A program made the position numbers and the translations under genes. The notes beneath the pieces are model-generated. The model made no database searches and was not told the DNA's origin. It saw only the letters and a program-made list of their open reading frames with translations. A stretch of 64,000 nucleotides of DNA from assembly GCA_028641055.1 (NCBI GenBank), contig CM054063.1:50531827-50595826 (forward strand), given 5' to 3'. The DNA is from Alopecurus myosuroides. Lineage: Eukaryota; Streptophyta; Magnoliopsida; Poales; Poaceae. Below are positions 21,217-44,300 of the stretch, in pieces (within the stretch, counting starts at the first letter, position 1; every line of letters begins with the position of its first letter).

Positions 21217-22064
21217 TCTTCACCTCTGAGCCCATTGACAAGCAGTCTCAGCACAGGCGTGCCATGGAGGTCAATGCCGTGATCCCCGCTGTTCCTCACT
21301 ATATGCACCGGTGCAACCAAGAGATCACGTGGACCAGAGCAGATCATCCTAAGGTGATGCCCAATCTGGGTAGCTATGCCCTGGTGCTGGATCCCACCTT
21401 TTTGGGCCCTCAGAAGAATGTGAAGTTCAGCAAGGTTCTAATTGACAACGGCAGCAACATTAACATTGTGTACAGAGACACACTTGAGAAGCTCGGTTTG
21501 GCCGAGAACATGCTGCTACCTAGCCAGACCACTTTCCATGGCATTGTGCCAGGAGTTTCTTGCAATCCGATTGGCCGAGTATGGATAGATGTGCTATTCG
21601 GCACCAGGGAGAACTGCCGCACAGAGAGCCTGCAGTTCGAGGTGGTTGATCATCAGAGCCCCTACCACGCTCTACTCGGCAGGCCTGCTCTGAGCAAGTT
21701 CATGGCCTCTACCCACACTGCATATCTGAAGATGAAGATCCCTGGCCCCAATGGCGTGATCACCATCTCTGGTGATTACAAGAAGTCCATGGAGTGTGCT
21801 TCTGCCGGTTCTCAGTTGGCATAATCCATGGTGATTGCTGCCGAGAAGAAGAAGATGTACGAGGTGGTGGCTATGGCGCAATCCGCGCAAGATGGTGCGC
21901 CTGGCATGCCGAGTTCCCAGCACGGGACGGCGTTCCAGGCATCTCAGGAGACAAAGAAGATCCAGGTTGACCCTGAGTTTCCCGACCGAGTTGCCATCAT
22001 TGGCTCCGGGTTGGGGGAGAAATAGGAAAGCGAGCTCATCCACTTCCTCCGTGAGAATCGGGAC
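21213..22064 (+). pseudogene. pol: Tat-2 protease and linker, two in-frame stops
   Basis: The frame begins almost at the primer site with the conserved pre-protease block (EVNAVIPAVPHYMHR; EITWTRADHP). It continues with the protease active site LIDNGSNINIVY (Asp in D-N-G) and YHALLGRPALSKFM. TAA at 21822-21824 and TAG at 22023-22025 interrupt the linker to the RT, both in the same frame as the rest of pol. The region between primer site and protease is only about 40 bases, so no gag is encoded. The protease domain itself is unbroken. Confidence 0.88.
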
Positions 22065-24356
22065 GTGTTCGCCTGGTTCAATGAGGATCTGCCAGGTGTC
22101 CCGAGGGAGTTGGTTGAGCACTCGCTACATGTGCGTCCTGACGCCAAACCAGTGAAGCAGGCTATGCGCCGTTTCAGAGATGAGAGAAGGAAGGCCATCG
22201 GTGACCAGATCACCAAGCTGTTGATAAGCAATTTCATCATGGAAGTGCTCCACCCGGATTGGCTAGCCAACCCAGTCATGGTTGAGAAGAAGAAGGAGGA
22301 CCCCAAGGCAGCTACCGCATGGCGCATGTGCGTCGACTACACCGACTTGAACAAGGCCTGCCCCAAGGATCCTTTTCCGCTACCTCGCATCGATCAGGTG
22401 ATCGATTCCACTGCTGGTTGTGAACTGTTGTCTTTCATAGATGCCTACTCTGGTTTTCATCAGATAGCTCTCAACCCTGCTGATCAAATAAAGACTGCTT
22501 TCATTACCCCGTACGGGGCTTATTGCTATCGCGTCATGTGTTTCGGGTTGCGGAATGCGGGTGCCACTTATCAGAGATGCATGCAAAAATGCTTGCATGA
22601 TCAACTCGGCAAAAATGTGCAGGTGTACATAGATGACATTGTCATCAAAACGAATAAAACACATACTCTGCTTAGTGACCTTGAGGAAACTTTCGCTAAT
22701 TTGCGTAAGTACAAGATGAAGCTGAACCCGAGTAAATGCACCTTTGGCGTCCCGGCTGGCAAGCTACTCGGCTTCTTGGTATCCAGTCGCGGCATTGAGG
22801 CCAATCCTTCAAAGATAAAAGCTATTGAGAGCATGTCTTTGCCGAGATCCCTGAAGGATGTGCAAAAATTCACTGGTTGCTTGTCATCTCTGAGCCGTTT
22901 CTTGGGCAGAATGGGCGAGAAGGCCCTGCCTCTGTATCAATTAATGAAGAAAAGCGAAAAGTTCGTCTGGACACCGCAAGCGGATGTGGCATTCAAAGAG
23001 CTAAAGGCAATGCTGGGTAGCGCTCCCATTTTGGCTAGTCCGCTACCCAAGGAGCCAATGCTGCTATACATTGCGGCTACCAATCGAGTGGTAAGCGTGG
23101 TGATCGTGGTAGAGCGAGAAGAAGAAGGCAAAAGTGTGCAGCGACCGGTGTACTATCTCAGTGAGGTGCTGTCCAGCTCCAAGCAGAACTACCCGCACTA
23201 CCAAAAAATGACTTACGGAGTGTACCTGGGCGCCAAGAAGCTAAAGCACTACTTCCAAGAGCACCCCATCACAGTGGTGAGCTCAGCTCCCATCTCGGAT
23301 ATCATGGGCAACAAGGAAGCGAGTGGCAGAGTAGCCAAGTGGGCAATCGAGCTAGCCACGTACGCTCCCGCGTATGCGCGAAGAGAAGCCATCAAGTCTC
23401 AGATTCTGGCAGAATTTCTTGTGGTTTGGGCTGAGGTGCAGTATGAGCCTCCTACTCCGGTATCCAACTACTGGAAGATGCACTTTGATGGCTCCAAGAT
23501 GAAGGAGGGCCTTGGTGCTGGCGTGGTGCTTACGTCACCCAAGAGAGATCAACTCAAGTACGTGCTGCAAATCCACTTCAAGGCATCTAACAACGTAGCA
23601 GAGTACGAGGTTGTGGTACATGGCTTAAAAGTAGCAAAGGAAGTTGGTGTGCAGCGCATCATATGCTACGGCGACTCGGATCTAGTTGTGCAGCAAGTTT
23701 CTGGCACTTGGGATGCTCTGGATGCCAACATGGCGTCATACCGCTTCCTGGTCCAAACCATGACGGGATTCTTCAAAGGCTGCGAGTTCCAACACATACA
23801 CCGAGCAGAGAACGAGGCGGCTGATGAGCTGTCCAAGTTGGGGTCTTCTCGGCAGTACATCCCGGCAGGGGTTGCTTTGGAGTATTTGAGAAAGCCATCC
23901 ATCAAGCCATCCCCCAGTTCGGAGTCCATCTTCGTTCCTTCTCTGCCTGATGAAGAAGCAGTTCCAATGGAGATTGACTGGGAAGGTGCAAAAGAGGACC
24001 CGGGGACTGCCGTCTCCATCCCAGGGACTGGCGCCTGCAACCCGGGGACTGCCCCTCCCTACTCGGGGACTGCTCCTCCTTACTCGGGGACTGCCCCCCT
24101 CAGCTCGGGAACTGTCACATTCCTTGAAGAAGTCCTTGCGAACCGTTCGGGGCTGCAGAGAGTCAACCCCAACCCAGAAAAAGACGCAGCGGTGGCTGTT
24201 CCGATGGAACTGGACGAACCAGCGTTTCCCGCACGGGAGACGCCGAGTTGGGCCATGCCCATATTATCCTTTATCAAGGACGGCACCCTACCAGATGACG
24301 AGGTTACCGCAAGGCAGATTCAGAGAAGATCCAAGGGCTACACCATCTTCAGATAA
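22065..24356 (+). pseudogene. pol: Tat-2 reverse transcriptase and dual RNase H
   Basis: A 763-codon open segment. RT blocks: CVDYTDLNKACPKDPF, FIDAYSGFHQIAL, FGLRNAGATYQRCMQ and catalytic VYIDDIV. Then comes the degenerate first RNase H (MLLYIAATNRVVSVV, no Asp where active enzymes have one). After it is the archaeal-type RNase H with MHFDGSK, AEYEVVVHG, GDSDLVVQQ and NEAADELS, so the four acidic positions are kept. It copies the element RNA into cDNA. A six-unit heptapeptide repeat follows at the C-terminal end. The segment ends at TAA 24354-24356, where Tat-3 has a glutamate (GELYKR). Confidence 0.92.
23998..24123 (+). repeat. 21-base tandem repeat with polypurine-like core
   Basis: Six units spaced exactly 21 bases apart, each with a GGGACTG-like core (near 24002, 24023, 24044, 24065, 24086, 24107). 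Translated they give a seven-residue repeat, P/S-G-T-A-P-P-Y, between RNase H and integrase. The core CTCGGGGACTG also appears outside pol, at about 25578 and, as CTCGGGGACT, at about 26000 and 27971. It resembles the tract GGGGACTAC/GGGGGCTA that precedes the 3' LTR in these elements. Confidence 0.85.
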
Positions 24357-25514
24357 GTGCTGCATAAAAGAAGTGCCACTGGCGTGTTGCAACGTTGTGT
24401 GGAACCGGAAGAAGGAGAAGAGATTCTGGTGGAAATACACCAAGGGGAATGCGGGCATCACGCCTCTTCTCGGGCTCTGGTCAAAAAGGCCTTTCGACAT
24501 GGCTTCTTCTAGCTCACTGCTTTGAAGAAAGCGGAAGATATCGTGAGGAAGTGCAACGGCTGTCAGAGATTCGCAAGTAAAATCCACATGCCTGCTTCCG
24601 AGTTGAAAACAATTCCTATCACTTGGCCATTTGCTGTTTGGTGTCTGGATATGGTTGGTCCCTTCAAACCGGCTAGAGGCAACATGACACACATTTTGGT
24701 CATGGTTGATAAATTCACCAAGTGGATTGAAGTGAAGCCTATTCGGAAGTGTGATGGAGCTACTGCTGTGAGTTTCCTGAAGGACGTGATCCTGAGATAC
24801 AGCTACCCGCACAGCATCATCACGGATAACGGCACGAACTTTGCTGAGGGTGCCATGGTGAGATTCTGCAGAGATAAGCATATCCGGCTAGATGTCGCGT
24901 CTGTCGCGCATCCCGCGTCCAATGGGCAGGTGGAAAGAGCAAATGGCATGGTGCTTGCAGGCATAAAGCCAAGGCTGATTGAGCCGCTGCTGAAAACACC
25001 AGGGTGTTGGTTAGACGAGTTGCCAGCGGTGTTGTGGAGTCTAAGGACTACCCCTAACCGGTCAACCGGCTACACACCATTCTTCTTGGTTTACGGGGCT
25101 GAGGTCGTGTTGCCAATCGACTTAGAGCATGACTCCCCCCGAGTAACCCTCTACACTGAGGCGGAGGCGAGAGAAGCTCGAGAAGATGACGTTGACCTGC
25201 TAGAAGAAGCAAGAGAGCTTACTCTGTCACGTTCAGCTGTTTACCAGCAAAATCTGAGGCGTTATCATAGCCGAAAAGTGAACCCAAGGGTTTTCCGAGA
25301 AGGAGACATGGTCCTTAGGCTCGTGCAGCGCACAGCCGGGATGCACAAGCTATCCCCTCCGTGGGAAGGGCCGTTCATTGTGAGCAAAGCTCTACACAAT
25401 GATGCGTACTATCTTGTAGATGTGCAACCATCACAGAAGAACAGGCCGGATAAAGCTGGGGAGGAATCCAAACGCCCCTGGAATGTAGCTCTACTTCGTC
25501 ACTTTCATTCATGA
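24357..25514 (+). pseudogene. pol: Tat-2 integrase, one in-frame stop
   Basis: Same frame as the rest of pol. Zinc-binding part: EIHQGECGHHAS...CNGCQRFA. TAG at 24510-24512 replaces the tryptophan of the HGFFWLTAL motif. From 24522 the domain is open: WCLDMVGPF (first Asp), SIITDNGTNF (second Asp), NGQVERAN (Glu), with the 35-residue spacing between the last two as in Tat-3. The C-terminal GDMVLRLVQR...HKLSPPWEGPFIVSKA follows. The frame ends at 25514 with the PWNVALLRHFHS tail. Confidence 0.92.
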
Positions 25515-26183: not shown

Positions 26184-28249
26184 CTAGTTCGATGTAGCAG
26201 TGTTTTCCAAGTTGGCGTCGGCAGCGTGCGCTTCTGGATTGGCGGCAACTTGATCGGAGGTGGCGGTGGCCACCGAGATGGGGTCGGACTGGGCGCGGAG
26301 TAGCGCCGCGTCACCAAGTGTCGTCCCGGAAGATGAGCCCACCTCGGTAGTTGTACCCTGGGTGGCATCATGGCTCTCAGCTTCTTCGTCGTTACCCGCG
26401 GTGGCCTTGCTTTTCCCCTTCTCGGGGCTGGTCTCTTCAAAGCAGCCCAAGTCCTCTAACTCGGTCTCCTCGTCGTCATCTTCGTCCTCACCCTCACCTT
26501 CCGCGTCCGTATCAGGCTCGGTGAGGCCTTCGATGAAGCGCGCGGTATCCGCATAGGAGGCGATCTCATATGCGACTGCCTGGCGGCGAGTCACATACTC
26601 GGGATCCTTCTCCCACTTAGAGTCCCGGCGCATCTCGAGAATGGTGCTGAGATTGAGATTCTCGTACCAGATGCAAATGAAGAGCAGGAGCATGTCGGCG
26701 CCTGCCCGAGCTCCTGATGCTCGCCATTTCTTCAATTCGGCTTTGACGCCGTTCAGCTTCTCGGCAAGGGCGCGGATGGTTCTTGGCAACGGTTCTTGGG
26801 GCCAGAACAGCGCATGAAGCTTGAAGGCCGTAGATGCCAAATCAGTGCCCAAGCCCCTCAAACGCTGAACTTGTCCCTGCAGATTGGTGAAGCTATCTTC
26901 AATGGAAGCCTTGGTGTCCATGGGCAGTCCCTTCTCGGTGCGAATTTCTTGTGCCTTGGACAGAGCAGGCTTGCAAGCCGAGCAGAGGTCGGGGAAAATT
27001 TCTGAAAATGCTATCAGAAAGGATTAGAAACAGAGGCGGAAGCAGAGAAAAGATACAAATTAAGCCGCAAAGAGGAAGAAGGAATCAGGAAGGCGCAGAG
27101 AAGCGAGAACTTACTGTTCAGGTCGCAGAGTAGCGATTGCAGCTTCCTCTTCCACGACTCCTCGTCAGCAATGTGCTTCTCCTCGACCTTGCGGAACTCG
27201 GCCAGCTGGCTCATGAGGTCCACATTGCTCTTCTTCAGCAGCTCATTCTCTAGCTCGAGGGCTCTTTCCTTGGCCTTGAAAGCTGCCTCCATCTTGTCCT
27301 TCTCGGCGGTTATGTCTAGCACGTCCTGAAGGGCAGCCCTCAACTGGACTTGCAGCGGTTCCATCTCGGTGACGTGCTTGTTCTTGAGCTCCACCTCTAG
27401 GCCCTCAAGCTGCTGCTTCACCTCAGCAGGTTTCAAGCAGTCAAGGTGCTCCTCGCGGAACTTCTTGTACTCTTCTGCGGACAGAAACAACACGGTGAGC
27501 AGAGTAACCAACAGAAAAGAGATAAGCAAGCGGGAAGACGGCAACCCACCTTCCAGCTCTTTAATCTTGCTCTCGGCGGAGGCGCTGAAGACATGGCAGT
27601 GCTGGTGCTGCTCCTGCAGTTCTTTGAGTTTTTCTGCAGAGTAAACAGAGTTAGAGCAAAGAGCAAAATCCGGGCGTAAACACAAAACGCACTAACCGAA
27701 TAGCTAAAAGGATTACCTTCCATTGCAGAGAGCTGGAGGGCACGATCCACGGCTGCTTGCTCTGTCTCAGCATCAGTCTTGCGCTCCTTTTCCAGGGCCT
27801 CAAGGCGCTTCTTGGCAATGGCATGATTCCAGAGCAGACGCCGGTAAAGGATTGTTCTCTTCAAAAGGCTATTCTGAGAAGAAGAAAGAAAAGGAATTAG
27901 ATATTGTTTTGAAGATTTCGCCCGAGAAGACGGCAACTCGGCTGAGTACCCGTCTACTCGGCCCGAATCTCGGGGACTGGATGGTGGTTAAGGAGAAAGA
28001 GAAGGGTAGAAGAAGAAGGGAAGCGCAACTCGGAACAGGAAAAACACAACTTACAACATAGGTTTGCTCAAGGTCTTCTGCAGCTTTGCGGTGCACGAAC
28101 AGTTTCACGGCCAGCGTGCTAGTGGCGGACGAGATGGTCATTGGATTGTAGCCAATGTCCGCCTTGTTCCAGTCGGTGCGCCAATGGTCCAGCGGGCCCA
28201 AGGTCATGCCGTCCCAGGTCGGGTTGCAGAGGAAATCGCTCTCCCACAC

Positions 28250-28704
28250 TGTCGTGGGATAATCACGGCAGATGTTACCGGGGGTAACTGATCTTGGGGC
28301 AAGTCGACACAGGTATTCGGGAGAGTGTTTAGCTCGAAGGAAGACATGGCGGAAAGCAATCTAAGAACCGGAAAATAACTCGCCGGATCTCAATATGAAT
28401 TATGCTGGGTACTCGATAACAGGTGTTACAACTATATCTTGAATCTCTGGCAAACTAAACCTAGGGGCCGGTTTATAAAGCACCCGTACACCCCTAACTT
28501 GCCCTTCAAGGCACATCTTGGGTCCTACTCGAACTCCACATACAAGCCCTAACTTCCCTTACCGCAGCCCACAATCCGGGTTACGAATCTTACAAGCCTT
28601 TGGGCCTTCCGGTAATCTCTTTACCCCTAGCCGGATATCGCTCAACACACCTCGGGCCGGATTATATCTTGAAGTGGGCCTACCGGGTTACTATCCCCCC
28701 GTCA
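28250..28704 (-). repeat. Tat-3 3' LTR (455 bases)
   Basis: On minus it begins TGACGGGGGGATAG (28704) after the polypurine tract CCTGGGGACTAC (28705-28716) and ends CCCACGACA (28250). The minus TATA box TTTATAAA lies at about 28472-28479. It differs from the 5' copy at one base (CTCAACAC here, CTCAGCAC there). Confidence 0.95.
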
Positions 28705-29864
28705 GTAGTCCCCAGGATAGCGCGGGTTTCACGGATTCATCCTTGAAGCGCTCGCTATTCCCTGAAAAAGATACGAAACACCCAAGTTCATGGGGACCGA
28801 GTTAAATTGCTTCGATAGATGGCTAGGCACAGCTCCATGACGGCCATACGATAACTCGATTCCCCCCCGAATGCCTAACATGCCTTTCCAAATTTGAACC
28901 CTAAAATGCCAAGATTCCACTCACGATACCGGTCCCTGATATCTCGGGGTAGGTTACACTTCCTCCGCCAACGGAACATTTTATTCCATCCCGGGCGCAT
29001 GCACCACCAAATCCGCACGGATAATTACTGTCCCGTAGCTTCCGATTTTCCAGTCGCAGGGGTGAGCTCACCACCTCCCTTATAAATACCAATCGAAGGT
29101 AACCCTAGGCCTTTCACCTCACCTCATCATACCCTTTCTCCTCGCTCCCTCGCAATTTCCGCCGCCGGAGCTCGCGCACACTACGACAGATAAGACCACT
29201 GCCGGCCGCGCTCGACCTCGAGCTATCCCGCGCCGCCATCACGCATTGTCGTCGCATCTTCGTTTCTCTCATTGAGGGTCGTGGAACAATACTCAAGCCG
29301 CGCCTCACATCACCCTCATTTCGGACATCAATCTCTTTGGTAAGCCTCTCTCAATCATCCAATTGAACCTCGCAATTTCTTCAATTTGACTTGGATCGGA
29401 TCTGGATCAACCCGTAAATTACCTTTCCGGTATCGCCAAATCAAGCCGCTTCGGTAGACCTCAGCTCCTTTAAGCACCTGATGCGCAGTCGCAGTTTATC
29501 CCCTCACCTTTATCGACCATCAAACTTTATATAAGATCGCTCACAAGCCTTTTGATCGAGATCCATTCCACCTTGTTTTTTCCGCTTGTCTCATTATTAT
29601 CTGGAAAATCCTCTTTTTCCTGCTATTTCCTTCGCAATAAAGGTATGGGCAACCATCCATGTTCGCCCACCCCACCTCAATACGTAAGTAATTAACAATT
29701 TACTCAACCTCATCTGACACCCGGAAAATCCTCCACATTTAACATCGTAGCGCGTTATCCGAGTATTATTTTAGCCTTCGCATTGTCTTGATATTTCCAG
29801 ACTCGGACAATCTGATATTCCGACTCTTACTCCATACATCTCTTGTCCCTTGCAGGTCAACTCC
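28705..29864 (+). promoter_or_regulatory. Promoter and 5' leader of Tat-3 antisense gene
   Basis: No coding is seen for 1160 bases. A plus-strand TATAAATA at 29081-29088 is followed by C/T-rich leader sequence. A likely leader intron runs from GTAAGC at 29340 to CCCTTGCAG ending 29855, ten bases before the first ATG (29865, context CTCCATGGC). The intron is inferred from splice signals only. The polypurine tract of the element itself (on minus) is at 28705-28716. Confidence 0.6.
29081..29088 (+). promoter_or_regulatory. TATA box of Tat-3 antisense gene
   Basis: TATAAATA, preceded by CCACCTCCCT. It is the same octamer as in Tat-1 and Tat-2. The coding start is farther away here (784 bases), which the putative 516-base leader intron explains. 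Confidence 0.6.
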
Positions 29865-32800
29865 ATGGCTCCGAAAAGACAGGGAAGGCACCCGGCCCCG
29901 ACAAAGACCTCTCAAACCACTTCCGCCAACTGGGGTCAGTCTTCAACGACAAAGGCCAAGCTGGATGGGATGGCCGAGTTAGGAATCCTTCCTTCTCAAA
30001 AGGAGATACATTGGAGGGCTCCTGACGATGAGACCCGTCCCACTCCTGCCGGGAATGAGGTAATTTGTTTTACCGAGCACGTGATCCGGGGATTCCGTCC
30101 TCCGGGTCATTCTTTCTTCCGGGAAATCCTAAGCCACTACGGCCTCCGGGTGTTCGACATAGGGCCTAACTCTATGCTGAACATCACCCACTTCATAGTT
30201 TTGTCCGAGTCTTACTTATGCATTCCACCCAACCTAGCTCTTTTTATCGAGTTATTCCCATGCGAACCGTGCCGTGAGAGCAGTGACGGAGCACTTCTTA
30301 CCTGCGGCGGGGTATCCATCCAGCGCCGCAAGCACTCACTGATGCCAACTCTTAACCTGAATTCCCACGCTAGAAACTGGCAACTATCTTTTTTCTATTG
30401 TCATGACACTTCTCCGGATGGGGAGAGGAAATTGCCGGGTTACTCGGAGAGCCTCCTTGAGCCCTCCGAGTCTTTTAGTGCCTTTGCACCTGATCCTGAT
30501 AGGGAAGCGATTCAGCCCCTTCTGGCAAAACTAGCAGCCCTCTCGGCCCATGGCCTTCTTGGGCTTAATCTAGTAAAGACTTGGGTAGATTTCCGGGTTC
30601 AACCCAACTCTATTCGTTCGAAATTGCTACACGAGTACTCGGGTCACATCACGGACTCCCTCCGCTACTCCACCAAGAACTTCCCTGCTGGCAACACCAA
30701 CAAGACCATCAAGGGTTTCCTGATGGAGAGGCTAGATGTTATAAAGAACGCTACCGGGCTACCCCCGTTTACTCGGGAGAATCCCGCTCCAGCGGTAAGA
30801 CCTGACCCCCTTTCTCTTGTTTCAGCACTTTTATCCGCTATAGTCTCTAACCACTACTTGCATTTACTCGTTCACAGGCTGACGATCCCTTCTGGAAGGT
30901 CGAGAACTCTCCTCCCTCCCAAGACCCCGAAGAAGAAAACGAGTCCGTTGATGACGACGAGGGTACTCTTTCATAACCTTTATGCCTGCCTTTCATCTGT
31001 GCCACCTTTCTTATCACTCGTCCTTTCTTATCTGATATTTACTCGGCTTTCAGGGTCAGAGGACGAAGAGGAGGAGGAAGAAAATGACCCGGAAGCCACC
31101 GAGTCTGACCAAGAACCCCCAGTTGGAAACAAAAGGAAAGCTAGAGGGGTAGTTGAAAAGGTTCCCTTCTCTTCCATGTCTTGTGCGCCTTACTCCTTTG
31201 CCACTATGCATGAACTTAATGAGCGATTATCACATTCACCCTTCTTGAAGGACCCTCTCCCGACTAAACGTAGGGTGACCCGGAGTTCTCCGGGGAATGA
31301 TCCCCTTAACCCGGGCATCTCCACTTCACCCGCTCATCGAGCCAGTACCCCTCCAGCTCAACCTTCCCAATCTCCTCAACGTCATCCATCTCCTAGTCAT
31401 CCACTTGCCGGGCAATTTCGCGTACCGCAGCCAGTGCTTTTACCAACGTCATCCGCCTCCAGCTGCGAGCTTCCCCCGGACTATGCTGTGAACACCGGGT
31501 AAACTACCTTTACTTACATTCTCTCGCACTTGTTATCTTTCTTTTTTCCATACATTCCACTAATCAATGTCTCCTTTTTTCCCTTCAGCGCCACAGTTAC
31601 GCTGAGTGACCCGGATATTCCTGAAGCAGAAAGGCAGGGAGAGGAGAAGCCGAGTAATAACATGGACATTGAGGTTGAGGACGAGTCCGAGGACGGAAAT
31701 GAAGAAGACCCTTTTAAGGACCCACCTCCACCAAAAACTGCATCACCCCAGCCCTCTGAGGAGGTGGACGAAGATATCATTTTGGAGACCAAGTCGGGTT
31801 CTCCTAACCCGGACACTCAAACGGTCCGGGTTTCGACCCCCAGACCCGGAACAACCCTTCAACAGGAAGGCCAGTCTTCCGGCCCTTCTCGACTTCGCCC
31901 TGAAGACATGACCTTTGCTCAAATGCTAGATGCCCTCCATACCTTGAAGGGTGATGAAGAAAACATACTAGACGCCTTAATAACCAAGCACGAGGTAATC
32001 CCGAGTAGTACCAATTGTTTCCACACATAGTCCCCAAGTTCCGAGTAAATTACTAAGTAACTTGCTTGGAACTTTGTATAATGTTTCTGGCTAATCCCTC
32101 TTCATGCTTCCTTATAGGACTATGTTTCACAGTTGGAGAAGAAGCTGGCCAAGTCCACCAAGCGTATTGAAAAAGAAACGGCCCTTCGTGAAGCTGCGGA
32201 GACTGAAGCTCGCAGGTGCCAAAAAATGACGAAAAGGTACAGGAAAAGAGCTCACAAGGCTAAGGATAAACTGACAACACTTTCCGTGCAAATTGCTGAC
32301 GTTTATCGTACCGCGACTGGTAAGATTTTTAAATTTCACCTTTTTTATGACCCGGATTCCTTTGATATGAACCACTGTACTTGCTTACTTATTATCTTTG
32401 CTCCTTTGGCCTCTTTAGCAGGCCCAAGTGATGCTGCCCCCGAAGAAGATGACGCTGCTAAGCTAAAAACCATCAAAAATACTCTTCGCCAACTTTGCGG
32501 CGGAGTTAGCTGGATACTTGATGAGTTGCGACTGCCGGGTGTCAGGCCAGATAATATGAAGAGATTACTGGAATTCTGCTCCACAATCCCCGAGTGGATT
32601 TGGCACTGGAAACGGTCCTCCTGCCGATTTGGGGTAACCCGAGGGCTCGCGTTGGCTAAAGTCTACGCTCCCAAGCTAGAACTGGCCAAACTTATGAGCG
32701 GATTTCCAGAGTTCAACTTGGATGGGTCCAAATTTTTGCCAAAGGACTTCAAGGCTATTCAGAAAGAAGTCCGTCATCCGGCTAGCGTTATCGCTGATAG

Positions 32801-33050
32801 CTTAGAGATTGATGTGATTCTCCCTGCTTATGATGCTAATGACAAGATTGTCCAGGCGAACCGCCCCCAGCCGTACGATATGCTTGCCCGTTGGAGGGAG
32901 GAAGCAATCAAGATAAGGGACGAAGCTGCCAAGAAGGCTGATGCCGACTCTGCTCCTGCAACTTCGCAACCCGGGACTGCTACTGATCCGAGTGGCGCTG
33001 CCACCACCAGTGGCAACAAGGGCAAGGCCAAGATGGATCCTGCAGCTTGA
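29865..33050 (+). CDS. Tat-3 antisense gene, six exons, Transposase_28-like protein
   Basis: Exons proposed from GT-AG sites and frame: 29865-30794, 30878-30962, 31054-31498, 31589-31994, 32118-32319, 32422-33050. Introns are 83, 91, 90, 123 and 102 bases. Each junction keeps the frame and the sum (2697 bases) gives 898 residues with no stop. Residues about 60-310 form the core resembling Pfam 'putative gypsy type transposon' (FTEHVIRGFRPPGHSFF; HYGLRVFDIGPNS; NWQLSFFYCHD). Exons 3-4 are acidic and proline-rich. Exon 5 is a charged coiled coil, and exon 6 has a conserved-looking helical domain (GGVSWILDELRLPG; RFGVTRGLALAK). A basic tail may act in nuclear targeting. It runs tail to tail with pol. 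Role unknown; a start at 29865 is preferred as the first ATG after the leader. Confidence 0.75.
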
Positions 33051-34124
33051 AGTAATGAATATCGCCTATCATTCCATATGCGTCAGACGGTAAAGCGTTG
33101 TTAAAACAGCTTTATTATTTGTTTAAGCGGAGCGCCTGTGCTCTTTTGATACTTTAGGGTTTTTGTAATATTTTTGTTTAAACTCCCGATGCACTTTGCG
33201 CCCCTTTGGGCTTTTGATTAATGTGTCTTTGCACCCGCTTGTTCTTGATATCCACTTACTTTATTCTTGATACCTTGGACCTTTACTTTTTTTTTTATGC
33301 TTTCCTTGGCGAGACCCGACCTCCGGGTTTTGCTGGCATCTGGGGAACGGGCTTACACCCGGATCCCTAAGCCCCCGAGACCCGGATGCATGGCTCGTTG
33401 GAATTTTATCGGCTGGACAACGCTGTTTCTTCTTCAGAGCTCACAAGTCCCCCAGTCCGGGTTTCCGCGTCCAGGACACGTGATTGTTTCTTTTCAAGGA
33501 AACGAATCGCCTGTCGCTAAATGCCCAAGACTTCAGGACAGCTTTTTATGATGTTTGAAGTTATGCTTGATAATCGTTGAGTTTCCGGCTGCTAGCCTTA
33601 TACTCTGCATAACTTGTGGTTTAGATGACCCTTTCAACTACCTTGTACTATAAGCCGGCTTTCGCGTGGATACCATGTTGTTACATCAATACGAAAACGG
33701 GGTCAAGCAAGTCCCGTTTGGGTCTCATGACCGACATTAATCGTAAGCGAACGAATCATGCCACTTTGTTGCGAGTCACATCGAGCTTAAGTAAGAATAG
33801 CCGAGAAATTTGGACTTCTTTGTCCGGTTATAAGATTGTAGCCGCACTCGTTTTTTCGAGTGACCGGCCCCTATAACTCATTGGCATCAAGGCCGGGTCT
33901 TTTTTGAGTTTGCAGCTGTGCTTATAGGAGCAACCAGCCCTCAAGACCTGAATATGCACACCGTATAGATGACAATTGCCTCTTTTCCTGATAATCTCCT
34001 TTTTATTTGATATGAGAAAATTAGGCCAGCAAGCCGCCTCATTAAAAACCCGTCCAGTCCCCAAGGGTGCCCCGGATAGGAAAAGAGTGCGTCTGAAACC
34101 TGCTGCCTGTTACATCGTTTTCTG
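33051..34124. other. Tat-3 convergent spacer
   Basis: About 1.07 kb between the antisense-gene stop (plus) and the pol stop (minus). No credible coding. It includes T-rich stretches (33280-33300) and would contain both poly(A) sites, so the two transcripts probably overlap or nearly touch. Confidence 0.6.
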
Positions 34125-37100
34125 CTAAGTATAGTACGGACGTAGCTGAGCCACGTTCCATGGTCTATCTCTTTCTTGCATAGGTGCAGTAGTGTGAGCA
34201 GTGTCGTTGATTGTAGCCGATTCTTCTCTTGCATCTATCAAGTAATATGACCCATTATGCAGACTCCGGCTTACGATGAAAGGTCCTTCCCATGGTGGCG
34301 ATAGTTTGTGCTTTCCCTCGTTTGTCTGAACCAAGCGCAGGACCAAGTCTCCCTCTTGGAAGACCCGGCTTTTCACCCGCCGGCTATGATATCTTCTCAA
34401 GTCCTGCTGATATATGGCTGATCTTTCCAAGGCTTGCTCCCTTTGCTCTTCTAACATATCCACGGCGTCTTGCCGAGTCTTCTCGTTCTCCACTTCGACA
34501 TAGGCTGTCACTCTTGGTGAATCATGAATGATGTCGCTTGGTAATACTGCTTCTGCGCCGTAGACCATGAAGAAAGGTGTCATCTGGGTGGATCGGTTAG
34601 GTGTAGTATTGATACCCCAGACCACGGAAGGAAGTTCCTCAACCCATGCCCCAGCGGCCCTGATACAAGGAACCCTCAGTCGTGGTTTCAATCCACGAAG
34701 TAGCTCTTGGTTCGCCCTCTCCACTTGCCCGTTGGCTTGCGGATGTGCCACTGATGCTACATCAAGCCTGATTCCATTGCTGCCACAAAATTTTTCCATC
34801 TCTCCAAGGGACATGTTGGTTCCATTGTCGGTAATTATGCTGTGGGGGTATCCAAACCGGTATATAATTCTTTTCAGGAACTTGACTGCTGTGGCCGCTT
34901 CGCAATTGGTGACCGGCATAACCTCCACCCATTTGGTAAACTTATCAACAGCCACTAAAAGGTGCGTCTTCTTGCAAGGTGACATATGGAAAGGGCCATC
35001 CATGTCCATACCCCAAACAGCGAATGGCCAAGTTAATGGGATGGTCCGTAACTCCATAGCCGGCACATGAGTTTGGCGAGCGTACCTTTGACATCCGTCG
35101 CACCTTGCCACTATCCGTTCCGCGTCTGCTAGAGCTGTGAGCCAGAAGAACCCATGCCGATAGGCCTTGGCCACAAGGGACCTCGTGGACGCATGATGCC
35201 CACAATCACCTTCATGGATCTCCTTAAGGATCTGTCGGCCTTCTTCTGGTGTCACACAGCGCAAAAAGACTCCTGCTGCACTTCTCTTGTACAACTCCCC
35301 ATTGATAATAGCATATCCTTTTGCCCGCCTCACGATTTGTCTTGCTAGTACCTCCTGTTCTGGTAGTTCGCCCCGCGATAAGTAGGTCAGATATGGCTCT
35401 GTCCACTCGGGAACGTCACGTATTGTAGCCACGAGCTCCACATCCGGGTCTCGATTTGCTAGTTCTTCTTCAGACTCGGATTTAACTGACGGTCGCCATA
35501 GCTCGTCCAGGAAAACATTAGGTGGAACCGGCTCCCTGCGCGAGCCGAGTCTGGCGAGTGCGTCCGCCGCCTCGTTTTTTCTTCTGTCTATGTGCTCCAC
35601 TTCATACCCGGAAAAACACCCGGCAACCCTATCAACCTCCCTGCGGTACGCTGCCATAGTGGCGGCCTTCCTATCCCAGGTTCCTGATACCTGCTGCACT
35701 ACGAGATCCGAATCTCCAAAGCATCGTATCCTTTTAATGTTCATCTCCTTGGCTACCTTTAAGCCATGCAACAGAGCCTCATACTCGGCCACGTTGTTTG
35801 AACAATCGAAGTGAATCTGCAGCACGTAACTTAGTTTATCCCCCTTTGGTGATGTCAGCACCACTCCAGCTCCTGACCCTTCGTACTGCTTTGATCCATC
35901 GAAGTGCATGGTCCATGACTCGGAACTTGGAACTGCGGTAACCATTCCAGTGTGCGTCCAGTCGTTAACGAAATCAACCAAGGCCTGGGACTTGATCGCC
36001 GATCTGGGCTCGTAGCTGATATGATAATCTCCCATCTCTATTGCCCATTTGGCTATTCTTCCCGTTGCATCCGAGTTTCTGATGATATCCGACATTGGTA
36101 TTGAACTAACCACTGTTATGGGATGTTCTTGGAAATATGGCTTCAACTTCCGGCTGGCCATAAAGACCCCAAACACCCATTTTTGCCAATGTGGGTAACG
36201 CTGCTTCGCTTCCGATAACACCTCGCTGACATAATAAACCGGCCTCTGGACCGGGTAACCTTTCCCATCCTCTTTGCGTTCCACGACAACTACTGCGCTG
36301 ACGGCTCGGGGACCGGCTGCCACGTATAATAACATAGGCTCTTTAGGACCCGGCGCCGCTAGTACTGGCGCTTCAGATAACTGCTTCTTTAGTGCTTCAA
36401 ACGCCTCATCTGCCTCCTGATCCCATACGAACTTATCTGATTTCCGCAAAAGCCGGTACAAGGGTATTGCCTTTTCTCCAAGCCTGGATATGAACCGGCT
36501 CAAGGCTGCTACACAGCCCGTGAGCTTTTGAACGTGCTTCAAATTTTCCGGTTTCTTCAAGCTCTGGATGGCCTTGATTTTATCCGGGTTTGCCTCGATT
36601 CCTCTCTCGGAGACTATAAAGCCGAGTAACTTCCCGGCCGGAACTCCGAATACACACTTCGTTGGGTTAAGTTTCATCTGATACCTTCTCAAGTTTTTAA
36701 ACGTTTCCTTTAAATCATCAATAAATGTCTCTGCCTTCCGGGTCTTAATAACCACATCATCCACATACGCGTGCACGTTGCGCCCAATTTGATCCTCGAA
36801 GCACTTCTGAATACACCGCTGGTAAGTTGCGCCCGCGTTTTTCAATCCAAACGTCATGGTTTTATAGCAGAAGGCCCCAAAAGGGGTTATGAATGACGTT
36901 TTCTCCCAATCCTCCCTCTTGAGTTTAATCTGGTGGTACCCCGAATATGCGTCCAAGAAACATAGCAAGTCGCTTCCGGCTACCGCGTCTATGATTTGGT
37001 CTATCCTTGGCAGCGCAAACGGATCCTTTGGGCAATGCTTGTTGAGGCTCGTGAAATCGATGCACATCCTCCATTCATTTGTCTTTTTCATCACAAGAAC

Positions 37101-38492
37101 CGGATTTGCTAACCAGTCGGGGTGAAATACTTCCATGATAAAGCCTGCGGTTAATAGTCGCGCGATTTCCTCACCTATAGCTCTTCTCCTTTCCTCGTTC
37201 ATTTTTCTCAAACCTTGCTTCACAGGCCTGGCCCTGGGATCCACATGCAAACTGTGCTCTGCCAGCTCGGTGGGGATACCCGGCATGTCGCTGGGTGTCC
37301 AGGCAAACACATCCGCATTTGAACGTATGAACTCCACTAGAGCCTTTTCTTGCGCGCTTTCCAAATTGGACCCTATAGTGAACTGCTTGGTGGGGTCTCC
37401 TTCCACAAAATCTACTTTCTTGGTGTCTTGAGCCGCCTTAAATTTTACTCTTTCGTCCTCAGAATCTGGTCTTCTCAATGCTGTGCCATCATCCGGATTC
37501 ACCTGAGACCGGTAATATTTAAGTTCTTCCTTTCTGCAGGCTTGTTCAGCCATTACCGAATCTCCCTCATCGCATTCTGCTGCTATATCCCGGTTTCCAT
37601 GGATAGTGATGATCTGCTTGGGGCCTGGAATTTTTAACTGCAAATATACATAGCACGGCCTAGCCATGAACTTAGCATAAGCCGGCCTTCCGAACAATGC
37701 GTGGTAAGGACTGTGCAACCTGACCACCTCAAACGTGAGCCATTCCACCCGATAGTTATCTACCGACTCTCCGAAGGCTACTTCCAATGTAATTTTTCCT
37801 TCGGGGCGCGCCGAATGACCCGGCACGATTCCATGAAAAACCGTCGAACTTTTCTGTAGCTGAGATTCTTTGAGGTTCATGCGCAAGAAGGTTTCCCAAT
37901 ATAGGATGTTGATGCTGCTCCCTCCGTCCATCAATACCTTTCTCAATTCATAACCATTGACCTGTGGCGAGACTACTAATGCCAGGGTTCCGGGGCGCTC
38001 TATTCCTTCCGGATGATCCCTTCTGCTCCACGTTACCTCTTGCTCTGCCCATCTCAAGTATCCCGGAGTGGCCGAGGAAACTGAATCCACTGTCTGTTTT
38101 AACGCCTTTTTGTCCCTGTCGGAAGTCCCTGTAACATGCACATGATATTGTCCTTTTAAATTGAGCGTACGTACCATACCGATGAAGATACTGATTTGGC
38201 CAATCGACACCGTGGATCCGGATTCGAGGTGATCCGGCTCCAACTCCCACCCGGAATTGTCCACTATCCTTTTTCCTTCGTCATTGGAGTAGATCTCGCC
38301 GACGACAAAGTTCTTCATGTTCTTCCGAGCTTCTCCCGTGATGTAAACACCTTTGGACGCAGGCCCCACGGTGGGCGCCAACTGTCGTGGGATAATCACG
38401 GCAGATGTTACCGGGGGTAACTGATCTTGGGGCAAGTCGACACAGGTATTCGGGAGAGTGTTTAGCTCGAAGGAAGACATGGCGGAAAGCAA
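34125..38492 (-). CDS. pol: Tat-3 pol polyprotein, intact, gag core deleted
   Basis: A 1455-codon frame without stops. The first 36 codons lie in the LTR, then QLAPTVG is encoded by the primer site. Residues 95-110 keep the gag N-terminal FIGMVR motif. Protease Asp189 (MDGGSS), RT about 395-690 with YVDD at 576-579. The first RNase H (about 715-850) has alanines where the catalytic Asp is expected (LLYVAAG). The archaeal-type RNase H (about 860-985) has D865, E903, D927 and D977. The integrase has a zinc site around 1093-1134 (H, H, C, C), then D1163, D1222 and E1258, with exactly 35 residues between the last two. The C-terminus is PPWEGPFIVSR. It lacks a gag core and zinc knuckle, so particles would need gag from elsewhere. 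The start ATG could also be residue 5 or 59. Confidence 0.93.
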   Translation of the reverse strand: MLSAMSSFELNTLPNTCVDLPQDQLPPVTSAVIIPRQLAPTVGPASKGVYITGEARKNMKNFVVGEIYSNDEGKRIVDNSGWELEPDHLESGSTVSIGQISIFIGMVRTLNLKGQYHVHVTGTSDRDKKALKQTVDSVSSATPGYLRWAEQEVTWSRRDHPEGIERPGTLALVVSPQVNGYELRKVLMDGGSSINILYWETFLRMNLKESQLQKSSTVFHGIVPGHSARPEGKITLEVAFGESVDNYRVEWLTFEVVRLHSPYHALFGRPAYAKFMARPCYVYLQLKIPGPKQIITIHGNRDIAAECDEGDSVMAEQACRKEELKYYRSQVNPDDGTALRRPDSEDERVKFKAAQDTKKVDFVEGDPTKQFTIGSNLESAQEKALVEFIRSNADVFAWTPSDMPGIPTELAEHSLHVDPRARPVKQGLRKMNEERRRAIGEEIARLLTAGFIMEVFHPDWLANPVLVMKKTNEWRMCIDFTSLNKHCPKDPFALPRIDQIIDAVAGSDLLCFLDAYSGYHQIKLKREDWEKTSFITPFGAFCYKTMTFGLKNAGATYQRCIQKCFEDQIGRNVHAYVDDVVIKTRKAETFIDDLKETFKNLRRYQMKLNPTKCVFGVPAGKLLGFIVSERGIEANPDKIKAIQSLKKPENLKHVQKLTGCVAALSRFISRLGEKAIPLYRLLRKSDKFVWDQEADEAFEALKKQLSEAPVLAAPGPKEPMLLYVAAGPRAVSAVVVVERKEDGKGYPVQRPVYYVSEVLSEAKQRYPHWQKWVFGVFMASRKLKPYFQEHPITVVSSIPMSDIIRNSDATGRIAKWAIEMGDYHISYEPRSAIKSQALVDFVNDWTHTGMVTAVPSSESWTMHFDGSKQYEGSGAGVVLTSPKGDKLSYVLQIHFDCSNNVAEYEALLHGLKVAKEMNIKRIRCFGDSDLVVQQVSGTWDRKAATMAAYRREVDRVAGCFSGYEVEHIDRRKNEAADALARLGSRREPVPPNVFLDELWRPSVKSESEEELANRDPDVELVATIRDVPEWTEPYLTYLSRGELPEQEVLARQIVRRAKGYAIINGELYKRSAAGVFLRCVTPEEGRQILKEIHEGDCGHHASTRSLVAKAYRHGFFWLTALADAERIVARCDGCQRYARQTHVPAMELRTIPLTWPFAVWGMDMDGPFHMSPCKKTHLLVAVDKFTKWVEVMPVTNCEAATAVKFLKRIIYRFGYPHSIITDNGTNMSLGEMEKFCGSNGIRLDVASVAHPQANGQVERANQELLRGLKPRLRVPCIRAAGAWVEELPSVVWGINTTPNRSTQMTPFFMVYGAEAVLPSDIIHDSPRVTAYVEVENEKTRQDAVDMLEEQREQALERSAIYQQDLRRYHSRRVKSRVFQEGDLVLRLVQTNEGKHKLSPPWEGPFIVSRSLHNGSYYLIDAREESATINDTAHTTAPMQERDRPWNVAQLRPYYT
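38364..38382 (-). other. Tat-3 primer-binding site
   Basis: On minus, GTTGGCGCCCACCGTGGGG directly follows the 5' LTR end. It matches the Tat-2 site. It is also translated (QLAPTVG) in the pol frame. Confidence 0.8.
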
Positions 38493-38837
38493 TCTAAGAA
38501 CCGGAAAATAACTCGCCGGATCTCAATATGAATTATGCTGGGTACTCGATAACAGGTGTTACAACTATATCTTGAATCTCTGGCAAACTAAACCTAGGGG
38601 CCGGTTTATAAAGCACCCGTACACCCCTAACTTGCCCTTCAAGGCACATCTTGGGTCCTACTCGAACTCCACATACAAGCCCTAACTTCCCTTACCGCAG
38701 CCCACAATCCGGGTTACGAATCTTACAAGCCTTTGGGCCTTCCGGTAATCTCTTTACCCCTAGCCGGATATCGCTCAGCACACCTCGGGCCGGATTATAT
38801 CTTGAAGTGGGCCTACCGGGTTACTATCCCCCCGTCA
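38383..38837 (-). repeat. Tat-3 5' LTR (455 bases)
   Basis: Right-hand copy, same ends as the left copy (TGACGGGG on minus at 38837, CACGACA at 38383). The minus-strand TATA box TTTATAAA is at about 38605-38612, 113 bases upstream of the pol ATG at 38492, so that ATG would lie in the transcript. Confidence 0.95.
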
Positions 38838-41311
38838 CACACCGCGTCGATGAAGCATGCCCGGTCGATTATCTGCTCGAGCCCTGCGGACTGCACCTCA
38901 GTCTCTTGGGCCTCGCGCGAGAAGATCGAGAGGGACTTCTTCTTCTTTTCCGACAGCTTGGCGTCCACAGCTGTGGCCTTCTTGCCCTTGGTGAGCGCGG
39001 CCTTCTTATCGCCCGCGGTCAGTTTGATGCCATACTGCTGGGCCGTCCGCACCATGTAGGGCAGGTAGCCAGGCGGATCCTGAGCGCTCGATCCTGCGCC
39101 TACGCCAGCGGAACTGACAGGAGCACCTGCCCCAGCAGAACTGCCAGGAGCACCAATAGCGAGCTGCCCAGCTTTCGTGGCAGGCTTCGCGGGTAGCTTA
39201 GGCGGCATCATCTTGGCAGAATCCAGCGCAGCGTTGCGCGGTGGATTCTTGCGGACTGCGGCATCAGGCTGAGTAGCCTCCTTCTCGGTGGCATCTGTCT
39301 TCTTGATGTTCTGCTTGGCTGGAGGGCTTGCTGCGGCCTTCTCGGTGTTCTGTTTGGCTGGAGGGTTCACCAGGGTCTTGGCCTTCTTCGCTGGAGGGCT
39401 GCAGGCGGTAGGTGGAGCAGCCTGCTCGGTAGGCGGCACAAGGGGCTCGCTACCCGGCGCAGCATCCGGCTGCGCTTGGCTCTCCAGATGCTGCTCCACT
39501 ACAGTCGCCTCAACCCGCTGCTCGGCAGCGGGATCTGGTTGTACGTCTTCTTGCTCGTCTACCCGCGGCTGGGCCGAGGGGTCATCTCGGTCAGCAGCGT
39601 CAGTGTCCTGCTGCTCCTGGGTCTCTTCCCGCCGCTCAAGAGCATCATGATCCTAGTGCTCAGCGTCCCGTTCGGCGTTCTCCCCAGCTGAAGCAGCAGG
39701 GGGAGAAGGTGGGGTCTCGTCGTGAGCAGCATCCTGCGCATCCTCTTCTGCGCGGGCCTGCTGCTCCGTGTCCATATCTTCAACGCCACCGCCCGCGTCA
39801 GCAGAATTGGTGCCTGCTTCATCCTCCTTCGCGGGAGAGGGCGCGCGTGTCCCGTCCTGTGCGGCTGGCTTCTCGTCATCCTCATCAAGATCGATGAGGG
39901 ACTCAAGGTCAATGGGCGTTTTCTTCTTGGACTTGGCGGGGGCGGCAGCAGCAGCATCAACATCCAAGGGGGCGCTGAAGAGAAAAAGGGATTCAGGAAA
40001 AGAAGAGAGAAAGAAGAAACCGAAAAGCAGCGGTGGAATAAGGGATTCAGGAAAAGCAGTAACAGCAGATTATAACTTGGAAGAAAATCACTTACCCTGC
40101 ACGTGAAGGGGGTGGCCGTCTCCCATAGACCTGCTTGGTCCTCTTCTCGCCCTTCTTGGCCTTCTTGGCGGTGGGCTCTTGGGCACCGCTACCCGCCCTC
40201 TTCTGAGTGGTGGGAGCAGCAACTGCAACCGGATCCACGTCGAGGACGTCCTCGTCCTCTTCGTCAACATCAACGTCATCTGCAGAGTAGAGGAGAAGAA
40301 AAATTGAGAGGCAGAAAGAAAAGATGGGTTGCGCTACCCGCGACTAGAGAGGCAAACTCGGTCACCTTCTTCTTCGTCCTCGGACCAATCCCGAATGGAT
40401 GTATCGACGGAGCGCTTACCCCGCTGCACGGCGTGAGGGATACAGAGGGTATCCGCAGTATCGTAGGAGACCTCGTCGTCCTCTTTTCGATCTTCGCTCC
40501 AATTGGCCTCGAAGCGCTCCTCGCTCTCAGTAAGCTGGCGAGCAAGGCGCTGGAAATATAGGCAAGCAACACGAATCAGCTGAGAAGTATAAGGCATTCT
40601 ACCCGGCATGGCGTGCAAACACAAAGCACACGAAGCCTAACAGACACTAACGAGTACCCTAATCGACATGGCGTGCAAACACAAAGCATATGAAGCCTAA
40701 GGAATACTGCTGAGAGTCCTACTCGGCACAGAGTACGAATACTAAGCATACCTAGCTAGAAGGCTATCTACTCGGCGTCACTATGCAGGAGACGAGAGGT
40801 GAGGTACTAACCCGCTTAATTGGCTTCGTGCGGCTGTACGGCACGAAGCCGTACTGCCAGTTGTCAGTGAGGCCGGTGCTCATGATCGAGCGCGCCCAGA
40901 CGGCCACATCCGCGTTGCTGAGCTCGAATGTGGTGGTCCGGGTGCAATCTCTATTGCCGCCCATGTAGCACATGAGGTGCGCACGGCGCTGCCGCGGGAG
41001 CACTCGCCTGGAAATCCAGCAGGCAATGGGGTCGTCATTCTTGAGCCCCAATTCCTTCAGCTGGGCGAGGCGTGTGTTGACCTGCTTGGTGTCGCCTTCT
41101 AGCGGAGGCTTGTATCCCTAATTCTGCCCAGTAGGAGCAGTGTTGGTCCACCTGGGAGTTTGATCTGGTCCACGGGGGGCACTCCCTCCTCGGCAGAGAT
41201 GTTCTTCACGTAGAAGAAGGATCTCTGCCATTTGCGCACGGAGTCGAGGCCCTTGACGCGCGGATCGTTGGTCCCGCTGCGCTGCACCATCATAGCGCTG
41301 CCGGTCTCGGT

Positions 41312-44300
41312 TGTCAGACCCCGGACCCAGAGATATACATACTGTTATGTGCTCCTAGCCATGGACTCACAAGGGCTTCAGGGTTACCAGCCCCGGCCGC
41401 AACAAACAACGGCAGGCAGACCGGATTCATCGGCACATAGTCCGGATCCCCGGTCTACTACTCCTTGTATCCATGCTAGTCATAACCAACTATGCATACC
41501 CAAGAATCCACGAGTCGGATGAAACTGAAGGAACGGGACCAAAGTTATACAGAGCTGCTATGTGTCCAGAAAGTGCAACAACAATCGAGGGTTACTGGGG
41601 TTACCTCGCCCCAGGCCGATCAAATCGACAGGCGGGCTCGGACATGGATCATCGGCTCCACAACCCCTCGACTGCGACAACTATGCAGGCATAGCCAAAA
41701 CTGTATAACAATGAGCTCGAAACAACAACCGATCAAAGCAGCACTCTAGACATTGGAATTGTATTAAACAAGTGTTACTAGAGTATAGCTTACAAGCAGA
41801 GGTCACACGACCCAACATTACATCAGACAACGGAAGGCAAATTATGTTGCTAATCAACAAGAACCAGAAAGGCCTAAGAGGCCGCAACATAAGGCGACGT
41901 CCCAGCCCATAGATTCCAGGCTGCTACCTGGGAACTCCAAACCACTCGTCAATGTCCACGTCGAAACACCACCGAACTGAGGAACTCCACCTGAACCAAG
42001 TTGAAGCAAACATGAGTACGGGAGGTACTCAACAAGACTTAGTTAACCTATTATATATCTGCTTCTTTTGAAAGAGTTATGAAGGTTATTTTGCGTATAG
42101 CCATCTTTATTTTCCAATTTGAGGGAGGAATAGCACGTCTCATGGAGTATTTTGAAAACAGATGAGAAAGCTACTCAACTACTGATATCATCATCTTTTT
42201 AATCCACCAACTCATATCAGCACCTCGTGCTTCAAAGATCACCTCCTCCAGTTGTTCCGGTAACTCATGCTACAAGGTAACCCCTCTCGGCATCTCCGAG
42301 GAGGCATCCTTCATTCGTTATCAGCAAGTTTTAATCATTCCGTTTAAGTTGTCTATGATCACAGAATCCGTCACCAAGTCGTCCTTAACCGCGGACACGG
42401 CTTTTCGAAAAGATTAAACCCTGCAGGGGTGTACAACTTTAACCACACGTATCAACCAACTCTTAACGCCAGATCATTAGCACTATTCCGGGAAGTGCCG
42501 GCAGATGGAGGTCGACCACGATCTTTCCCTTGCTTCGCCTATTCCATGAGTCGCTCCGAGTAGAGATGGTCCGCCAATAGGGAGTGGCCATCTCCTGCCG
42601 GGTCTCTATCGTTGTGCGCAATGCTCGACGGTTACCTACCCGCAGAGCGCCGATACATCGCCACGTCCTAGTTTTGAAAAGGTTTTGATATCCCCGCAAA
42701 TACAAATGGAAAGCCCGAACTAGGCAACTCATGGAACAAACTAGGCAAGTTGAGACCGAGGGGAATCCAATCCCCCGTGTGGATGCACGATCAGTCTTGG
42801 CTCGAAGACGAGAACTCGCTCCTAGGGGCATGAACGAGACAACCACCACAGACCCTCTGTGGTCTCGTCATCCACACCTTTAAATCATATTATTCAAACA
42901 TCTCTTAACTTACCACTACTTCCTACCATACTAGATCATTTCGTAACTCTGATTCATCAACCGGATGGAGCAGAGATAACAGGCATGTATGACTAAGCAT
43001 GGCATATTTGAGGCTCTGGCGATACACACAAACAAATCCTATGTCTGCTAGGAGCATTGAATCATGATATCTGGGTTATGCAAATAAATAGGATAACTCT
43101 ATCTATTGACTCAAGGTACATTGGAATCGAATGCATTTGTACGAGAATGAAAAGTCTTTCGAAATCATATATGGGCAGATAAGAGGTTATGCTTGCCTTG
43201 GTCATAAGAAAATCAATGGAAATGTCTTCTCGGATAAGTGCTTGACTTGTCGGTTAAGATCAAGTATTCGTCATGGAGTTGTTGGCCTTCTCTTCGGAGT
43301 CACGTTCTACCGAGGGGGAGCAAACACCAAAACAAGGAAAACAACAATCAACACATGGCATCGATGCAATGCGCAATATGTATGCATGAGCAAGTTAATG
43401 CATTGAAATAAAGCACTAGACATGTTCATTGGGTTGCTAGGGTTCGTATAGCGAACATGCAATTTTACTGGAATTAACCCGGAATAGACCCCGGAGGGGG
43501 TTTCGGGCGATTATGAAGGTGGATACCATTTTAGTTGCTCAAATGGGTTCGAAAACATCATAAATAGGTTACATTTGTCATTTTGAGCAAAATGGTATAT
43601 AACTTTTAATTTTCTAATTTTGGTGAATAAAAACTTATTTTTTTTCTATTTTTAAATGAATTAACAACATTAAATTAATGTCCAAAATTCAACTTTGTCA
43701 AACATGGTTGAAAATTACATATTTGGAAAAAGTACATTTTTCTGAGCAAAACTATACTTTTACTTTATTTTTCTGATTAATGAAACAATAGTTATTGATT
43801 TTATAAACATTAAACATTTCTGGAATTATTAAATAGGGGATTATGACATCAGGCTGATGTCACCATGACATCACGTTACCCTGCTCTTCACAGATTCGAT
43901 CGAATTCGATTCAATTCGCGCGCCAACGAGAAATTGGAAGCCACCACGGGACAGAGGAGGCAAAGGCGAGTTGGAGGGTGGTGGCGCCGCCCGAATTGGG
44001 TCACCGGAGCAAGCTCGGTGGCGAGCAACCGCGGCGGCGGGACAGCGGATTCGTCGGGGACGAGCTACAGAGAGGGAGAGGACAGGGCGAGTGCACCGGG
44101 AAGCTCACCGAAGTACCAGGAGCACGTAGAGGTAGTCGAGGAGGTCCGGGAGGCAGCGGTGGCGCCGGAATCGCCGACGGCATCCGCCGGCCGGAGTTGA
44201 GGGAGGAGGCCCAATTCGGTGTCTCCCGGCCGTCCCGGGAAGCTCAGCTCGCCATAGAGGTAGAGGGGAACACAGGGAGCTCGGATATGCCCTCGGTTTT

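Follow-up and report, generated by a model that had tools for sequence, protein, structure and literature searches.

This analysis indicates that a 64,000-nucleotide stretch of Alopecurus myosuroides DNA (hereafter, the window) likely carries a spliced antisense TRP28 accessory gene, with a product of about 900 amino acids, inside a young and apparently gag-less Retand element of the Ty3/gypsy type. The original prediction had placed there a six-exon antisense frame with five GT-AG introns and 898 residues, and we were able to reproduce it exactly: the model lies on the plus strand, opposite to pol, and yields 2697 nt and 898 amino acids with a single terminal stop. A permissive splice-aware ORF search reached 2973 nt on the strand of the gene versus 351 nt on the opposite strand, and the same search on 100 dinucleotide shuffles gave a maximum of only 780 nt. 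The 2973-nt ORF retains some in-frame introns and is not identical to the six-exon model.

The host element extends from 28250 to 38837 on the minus strand and is flanked on both sides by the target-site duplication GTGTG (28245-28249 and 38838-38842). Its two minus-strand LTRs (3' LTR, 28250..28704, TG...CA; 5' LTR, 38383..38837) are each 455 bp long and differ by one mismatch, the extra gap in the BLAST LTR-LTR alignment arising because that alignment overruns the LTR ends. The single difference across 455 bp, at a grass substitution rate of 1.3e-8 per site per year, puts the age of the insertion at about 0.08 My, a point estimate with a wide error. Two bases past the 5' LTR, the minus strand reads TGGCGCC, a PBS-like motif that we take to be the PBS, and the purine-rich sequence TGGGGACTAC lies ahead of the 3' LTR. 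The pol frame (34125..38382, minus strand) is open from the PBS to its stop and encodes RT, RNase H and integrase in the order required of the Retand lineage; a DGGSS motif within it, taken by itself, presumably marks the protease. The same frame is also open further upstream, from an ATG at 38480 within the 5' LTR, through the PBS and on to the stop at 34125 (minus strand), and pol could start within the LTR in a gag-less element. A Pfam search of the pol ORF, in which the first 480 amino acids were searched down to matches with E values of up to 1, found no gag family, and besides the antisense gene there is no ORF of at least 150 amino acids in 28705-29774 or 33051-34124. Because no gag coding region of the sort that an autonomous LTR retrotransposon possesses was found, the element is probably non-autonomous. 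Pol had been described as equally intact to the antisense gene; it is indeed open, but intactness holds for pol only, in an element without detectable gag. The antisense TRP28 coding sequence sits between pol and the 3' LTR, as expected of a Retand element, and the distance from pol to the 3' LTR is 5420 bp, inside the Retand range of 2,933-6,566 bp (PMC11963269). Judged by its architecture, the element appears to belong to the Retand lineage of Ty3/gypsy.

Other repeats surround it in the window. The pair at 20355-21170 and 53327-54157 is 97% identical and in like orientation, with a plus-strand pol (22026-25514) between its members, and probably represents the LTRs of an older element that hosts the present element and another as nested insertions. 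Direct repeats of 3560 bp at 41312-44871 and 48652-52210 are 99.83% identical and probably serve as the long LTRs of a different young element, likewise nested, and those at 54697-56162 and 62537-64000, which are 94.5% identical and reach the window end, are probably the LTRs of a further one.

The gene itself begins with coding exon 1 (29865..30794), which opens at the ATG at 29865, encodes the TRP28 domain PF04195 and is followed by intron 1 (30795..30877; 83 nt, phase 0). Coding exon 2 (30878..30962), intron 2 (30963..31053; 91 nt, phase 1), coding exon 3 (31054..31498), intron 3 (31499..31588; 90 nt, phase 2), coding exon 4 (31589..31994) and intron 4 (31995..32117; 123 nt, phase 0) come next, all on the plus strand. 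Coding exon 5 (32118..32319) encodes a coiled-coil-like segment with basic clusters, intron 5 (32320..32421) is 102 nt long and in phase 1, and coding exon 6 (32422..33050) supplies the conserved C-terminal region and the stop. Upstream parts, which like the lack of gag were absent from the original prediction, include a TATA-like sequence, TTTATATAAG, at 29526..29535 on the plus strand, where a 13-base stretch is identical in 30 of 35 copies; it is a candidate for the box that drives the antisense gene. A terminal part of a leader exon (29645..29683) precedes a leader intron (29684..29855; 172 nt, GTAAGT...CCTTGCAG), whose length is 172 nt in 35/35 copies and whose GT and AG are present in 53/53. 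The leader exon includes an in-frame upstream ATG at 29645 that would give a 914-aa product and whose frame is retained in 35/35 copies. Since amino-acid variants occur in 29645..29683 and 11 of its 39 sites are variable, versus 40 of the leader intron's 172 (35 copies), this stretch appears to be under no extra constraint, and the 914-aa product is best regarded as possible. No polyadenylation-like hexamer of the three types sought occurs in 33051-33700.

If the gene is real, its splice sites and frame should persist in other copies of the element, and they do. A DNA search with exons 5-6 returned 3593 candidates, of which the best 40, matching at 99-100%, were scored. The spliced frame is intact in 31 of these 40 (the window counted), and all ten coding-intron dinucleotides are present in 35 of them; one copy, L012, combines an intact frame with TT at the intron-4 donor. 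Another 20 copies with the exact exon 1-intron 1 boundary were taken by hand, in order, among the listed matches of 320 (none of them on contig C7), and the frame is intact in 13 of these, including two with products of 892 and 897 aa and one, L073, with a GG acceptor. The copies were thus chosen either by exon 5-6 similarity or by an exact exon 1-intron 1 match. Rate tests used 35 of the 40, leaving out the truncated or rearranged L013, L023, L025, L026 and L031, and the joint alignment holds 53 near-full-length copies after L069 (frame intact) and L076 were dropped for long gaps. Across these 53 copies and six introns, the leader intron counted, all but three of the 636 splice dinucleotides (633) are GT or AG, in keeping with the expectation that splice sites are conserved in other full-length copies. 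The three exceptions are the L012 donor and an AG>GG change at the intron-1 acceptor in both L073 and L077, which is perhaps independent in the two because they differ at 114 sites. Frameshifts or stops affect 10 of the 53 copies and no lesion recurs between copies, as expected if new copies descend from parents with a working gene; the 53 are a small part of the family. Between 29500 and 30700, the window copy together with L010, L011 and L014 (and L070 in exon 1) forms a haplotype that differs by about 5-10% from most other copies, the window copy and L010, L011 and L014 being only about 1-4% diverged outside this interval. Its fixed differences in exon 1 comprise 23 synonymous and 9 nonsynonymous changes, and its confinement to this stretch suggests exchange between subfamilies through recombination or template switching.

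Proteins from other grasses provide a second view of the exon junctions. A protein search with the spliced product found two wheat proteins, and a search with one wheat relative found 65 proteins (itself counted), including proteins of wheat, Aegilops and barley. A profile of 25 long grass relatives, made without the window's own sequence and with P0066 excluded from the relatives, aligns to the product in one stretch from residue 19 to 850 (319 bits), exon 2 included. When the relatives are compared with genomic DNA, homology ends at 30797 (donor at 30795) and restarts at 32406 (the acceptor ends at 32421 and exon 6 begins at 32422). In most relatives with the motif, NPAPA runs straight into A(D/N)DKFW; the corresponding window sequence across the exon 1-exon 2 junction is NPAPA|ADDPFW. 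In P0053, P0054 and P0055, 26 codons, with V first and Q last, are inserted at the NPAPA junction ahead of the common downstream sequence, an insert that we interpret as a translated intron 1 located in exactly this position; P0053 also seems to contain intron 2 read through. The intron-5 place is precisely where P0024 and P0025 part from the family, and the wheat models P0003, P0021 and P0027 do so a few residues ahead of this place. P0048, whose 845 aa are encoded on a contig of 4258 bases, is without the intron-1 insert; its contig would be either a cDNA or an intron-less relative, and such a relative may exist. Residues 20-318 as a protein query gave no match, though wheat relatives of that part exist, presumably a limit of word-based searching, and a scan with exon 1 found no relatives among viral contigs. 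One wheat protein, P0066, named as a DRM2-like DNA methyltransferase, is 66% identical over 12% of the TRP28 family query and probably reflects a gene prediction that runs into a neighboring element, or else a real fusion.

These comparisons bear directly on whether there is a spliced gene at all. The region could hold several separate antisense ORFs with the introns being mere gaps between them; an ORF Finder survey lists antisense ORFs one by one (PMC11963269), and some of the introns here are open in one frame, so that an ORF finder reads through them. However, the relatives fuse the exons into one protein with the exon 1-exon 2 junction at the corresponding residue in gene models, unspliced relatives have an insert at that very junction, and 633/636 splice dinucleotides are kept. 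We therefore regard separate ORFs as very unlikely and favor the single spliced gene.

The original prediction also held that the gene is probably selected, and the variation among copies bears this out. In the 35-copy set, 97, 77 and 193 of 899 sites each are variable at codon positions 1, 2 and 3, and 61 of 399 sites are variable in intron interiors. The NG86 mean pairwise dN/dS is 0.21 for these copies and 0.149 for the window copy compared with 31 more distant ones, both far below the value near 1 that would have spoken against selection. In a spectrum-matched test, each change was redealt among sites of like base and methylation context in 2000 simulations. With 53 copies, 77 of 213 shared variants are nonsynonymous versus 145.9 expected (odds ratio 0.26), as are 205 of 367 singletons versus 255.6 expected (odds ratio 0.55), and 0 of 2000 simulations were as low in either case, although the test ignores kinship among copies and these fractions are not formal probabilities. 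An earlier 35-copy run gave 56/149 nonsynonymous shared variants versus 102.2 expected and 121/232 nonsynonymous singletons versus 160.7. By exon, the depletion of shared nonsynonymous variants was matched in 0, 2, 4 and 0 of 2000 simulations for exons 1, 3, 4 and 6; exon 5 is borderline (57/2000), and exon 2 has just 5 shared variants (1102/2000). The antisense gene is under purifying selection, and the stronger constraint on shared than on private variants fits selection acting at or between transpositions. A 1.2-kb RT piece of pol was compared in 17 copies (18 of the 34 other rate-set copies were taken, of which 2 had no match, leaving 16 and the window); of its 25 shared variants none is nonsynonymous, of its 46 single variants 21 are, and pol looks at least as constrained as the antisense gene.

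Selection on codons also weighs on the proposal that the antisense RNA itself is functional, as double-stranded RNA or through interference with genomic RNA, and that its coding capacity is incidental. RNA-level regulation has been raised in a review (PMC7264820), but nonsynonymous changes and shared frame lesions are depleted among copies and codon position 3 is the most variable (193 versus 97 and 77 of 899), which makes an RNA-only function very improbable. An additional role for the RNA beside that of the protein is compatible with the same data.

Further information on the history of the coding gene comes from other elements in the window, whose decayed antisense TRP28 genes (minus strand, 10470-9921, 52599-52273 and 41374-40821) are 26-31% identical to the intact gene over aligned pieces. 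One relic has a GT donor at 9651 (GTAAGATTTT), paired with an acceptor, CTGCTGCAG, whose last base is 9567; another has a GT donor at 40811 (GTTAGTACC). Both donors lie at the place homologous to the start of intron 1. The family profile aligns to within at most three residues of the donor at 40811 (36.0 bits) and up to the donor at 9651, a weak match of 6.8 bits. Given the place it has in common with unspliced relatives and these two relics, intron 1 appears to be old and its position conserved. Introns and a TATA box are typical of cellular genes and might suggest recent antisense capture of a host gene, but the relatives in older elements of the window share the intron-1 place and antisense TRP28 ORFs occur in 61/63 Retand clusters (PMC11963269). 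Recent capture is therefore extremely unlikely, the window relics with intron 1 at the homologous place speaking against it; a capture in the ancient past is compatible with them. That the antisense protein substitutes for the missing Gag, as the retention of the gene in an element where gag was not found might hint, is the least credible idea of all and is opposed by Table 1 of PMC11963269, in which most TRP28-bearing clusters also have GAG.

The product of the spliced gene is related to Transposase_28, as the original prediction had suggested: Pfam places TRP28 (PF04195) in exon 1 with 70.2 bits (cut-off, 26.2). The protein also holds an acidic stretch and basic clusters, and Pfam gives one coiled-coil-like match below threshold, with more such matches in P0048. 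The predicted layout is an N-terminal TRP28 domain, an acidic linker with basic clusters, a coiled-coil-like segment and a conserved C-terminal region. Structure predictions are of low confidence (mean pLDDT 47.9 and 52.8), and a comparison of profiles with solved structures gave nothing below an E value of 0.016. By analogy, the protein may be a nuclear regulator of the element of some kind, a proposal that we consider evenly balanced; it could act in transcription control, anti-silencing or nuclear delivery of cDNA.

How could introns survive in a retroelement? A genome search with the 36 bases of the intron-less exon 1-exon 2 junction, allowing at most 3 mismatches, gave 0 matches, versus 320 for the exon 1-intron 1 boundary at equal length. 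If copies without intron 1 exist, they differ by more than 3 mismatches in these 36 bases. It had been argued that the introns are kept because the genomic RNA is made from the other strand, and these counts, which concern the exon 1-exon 2 junction only, are consistent with that idea. In the mechanism we propose, which builds on established retrotransposon biology, the gene's own TATA promoter would start an antisense transcript on the strand opposite to pol, and removal of the leader intron and the five coding introns would give an mRNA for the protein of about 900 aa. A working promoter and spliced RNA are what the sequence features predict. Genomic RNA is transcribed from the opposite strand; in it the introns would be reversed, unrecognised and carried along by reverse transcription. 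The antisense mRNA would begin inside the element, without LTR ends and PBS, and its spliced form would make no new elements. The introns would thus persist because they are unspliced in genomic RNA and because spliced antisense mRNA is not turned into elements. We think it rather probable that the antisense TRP28 gene of Retand elements was ancestrally multi-intron and that its introns, from a time before these grass families of elements split, have passed through many reverse-transcription cycles, shielded only by strand asymmetry. The provirus would then combine an intron-less sense genome with an intron-bearing gene of cellular type, and splicing may mark the accessory mRNA and separate it from genomic RNA.

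Retand antisense ORFs have so far been catalogued as separate ORFs with no function assigned. Should these ORFs prove to be exons of a single conserved gene, current annotations capture only fragments of it, and the protein, about 900 aa long, needs to be studied whole. The introns also offer a clean molecular tag, as a read across a junction would derive from accessory mRNA and not from genomic RNA or DNA, and the role of antisense genes becomes testable by asking when and where they are spliced and what their loss alters. The element is, in addition, a natural example of introns enduring in a retroelement.

Antisense ORFs were expected from what is known of Tat elements, and the expectation holds, though their generality had been underrated: Vicient (2025) reports antisense TRP28 ORFs in 61/63 recently active Retand clusters, describes A. 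myosuroides families that have no gag, and predicts a role in DNA binding (PMC11963269). The present element resembles A. myosuroides clusters 7a-7c, 7i and 7j of that study in host, in having no GAG and in carrying antisense TRP28 between pol and the 3' LTR, and its dimensions (LTR 455, internal 9678, POL-3'LTR 5420) lie within theirs (454-481, 9480-9685 and 5279-5433, respectively; PMC11963269). Unlike our gene model, the genes of those clusters are described as ORFs from ORF Finder, and the word "intron" is absent from the main text of the study (PMC11963269). Maize Grande gene23 is likewise an antisense gene between pol and the 3' LTR with its own promoter (here predicted) and has a nuclear product, a likeness drawn by description only; in contrast to the intron-bearing gene of the window, no mention of splicing was found for gene23 in the 2020 review that describes it, which itself calls for a search for antisense and spliced transcripts (PMC7264820). 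Among the open-access papers searched, none that describes introns within antisense genes of plant LTR elements came to light. Thus, antisense TRP28 ORFs are known already, and it is the multi-intron structure that looks new. HTLV-1 HBZ and other antisense retroviral genes also pair an antisense gene with a nuclear regulatory product (PMC11963269), an analogy that we draw for the working of the gene and not for its sequence. Ogre and EVADE, called notable exceptions to intron-less plant LTR elements in a review of December 2025 (PMC12786077), share with the window element the presence of introns within a plant LTR element, but there the introns are part of the sense transcript and influence the gag-pol products (PMC6317226, PMC12786077), whereas those of the window are GT-AG introns on the antisense strand and belong to an antisense gene.
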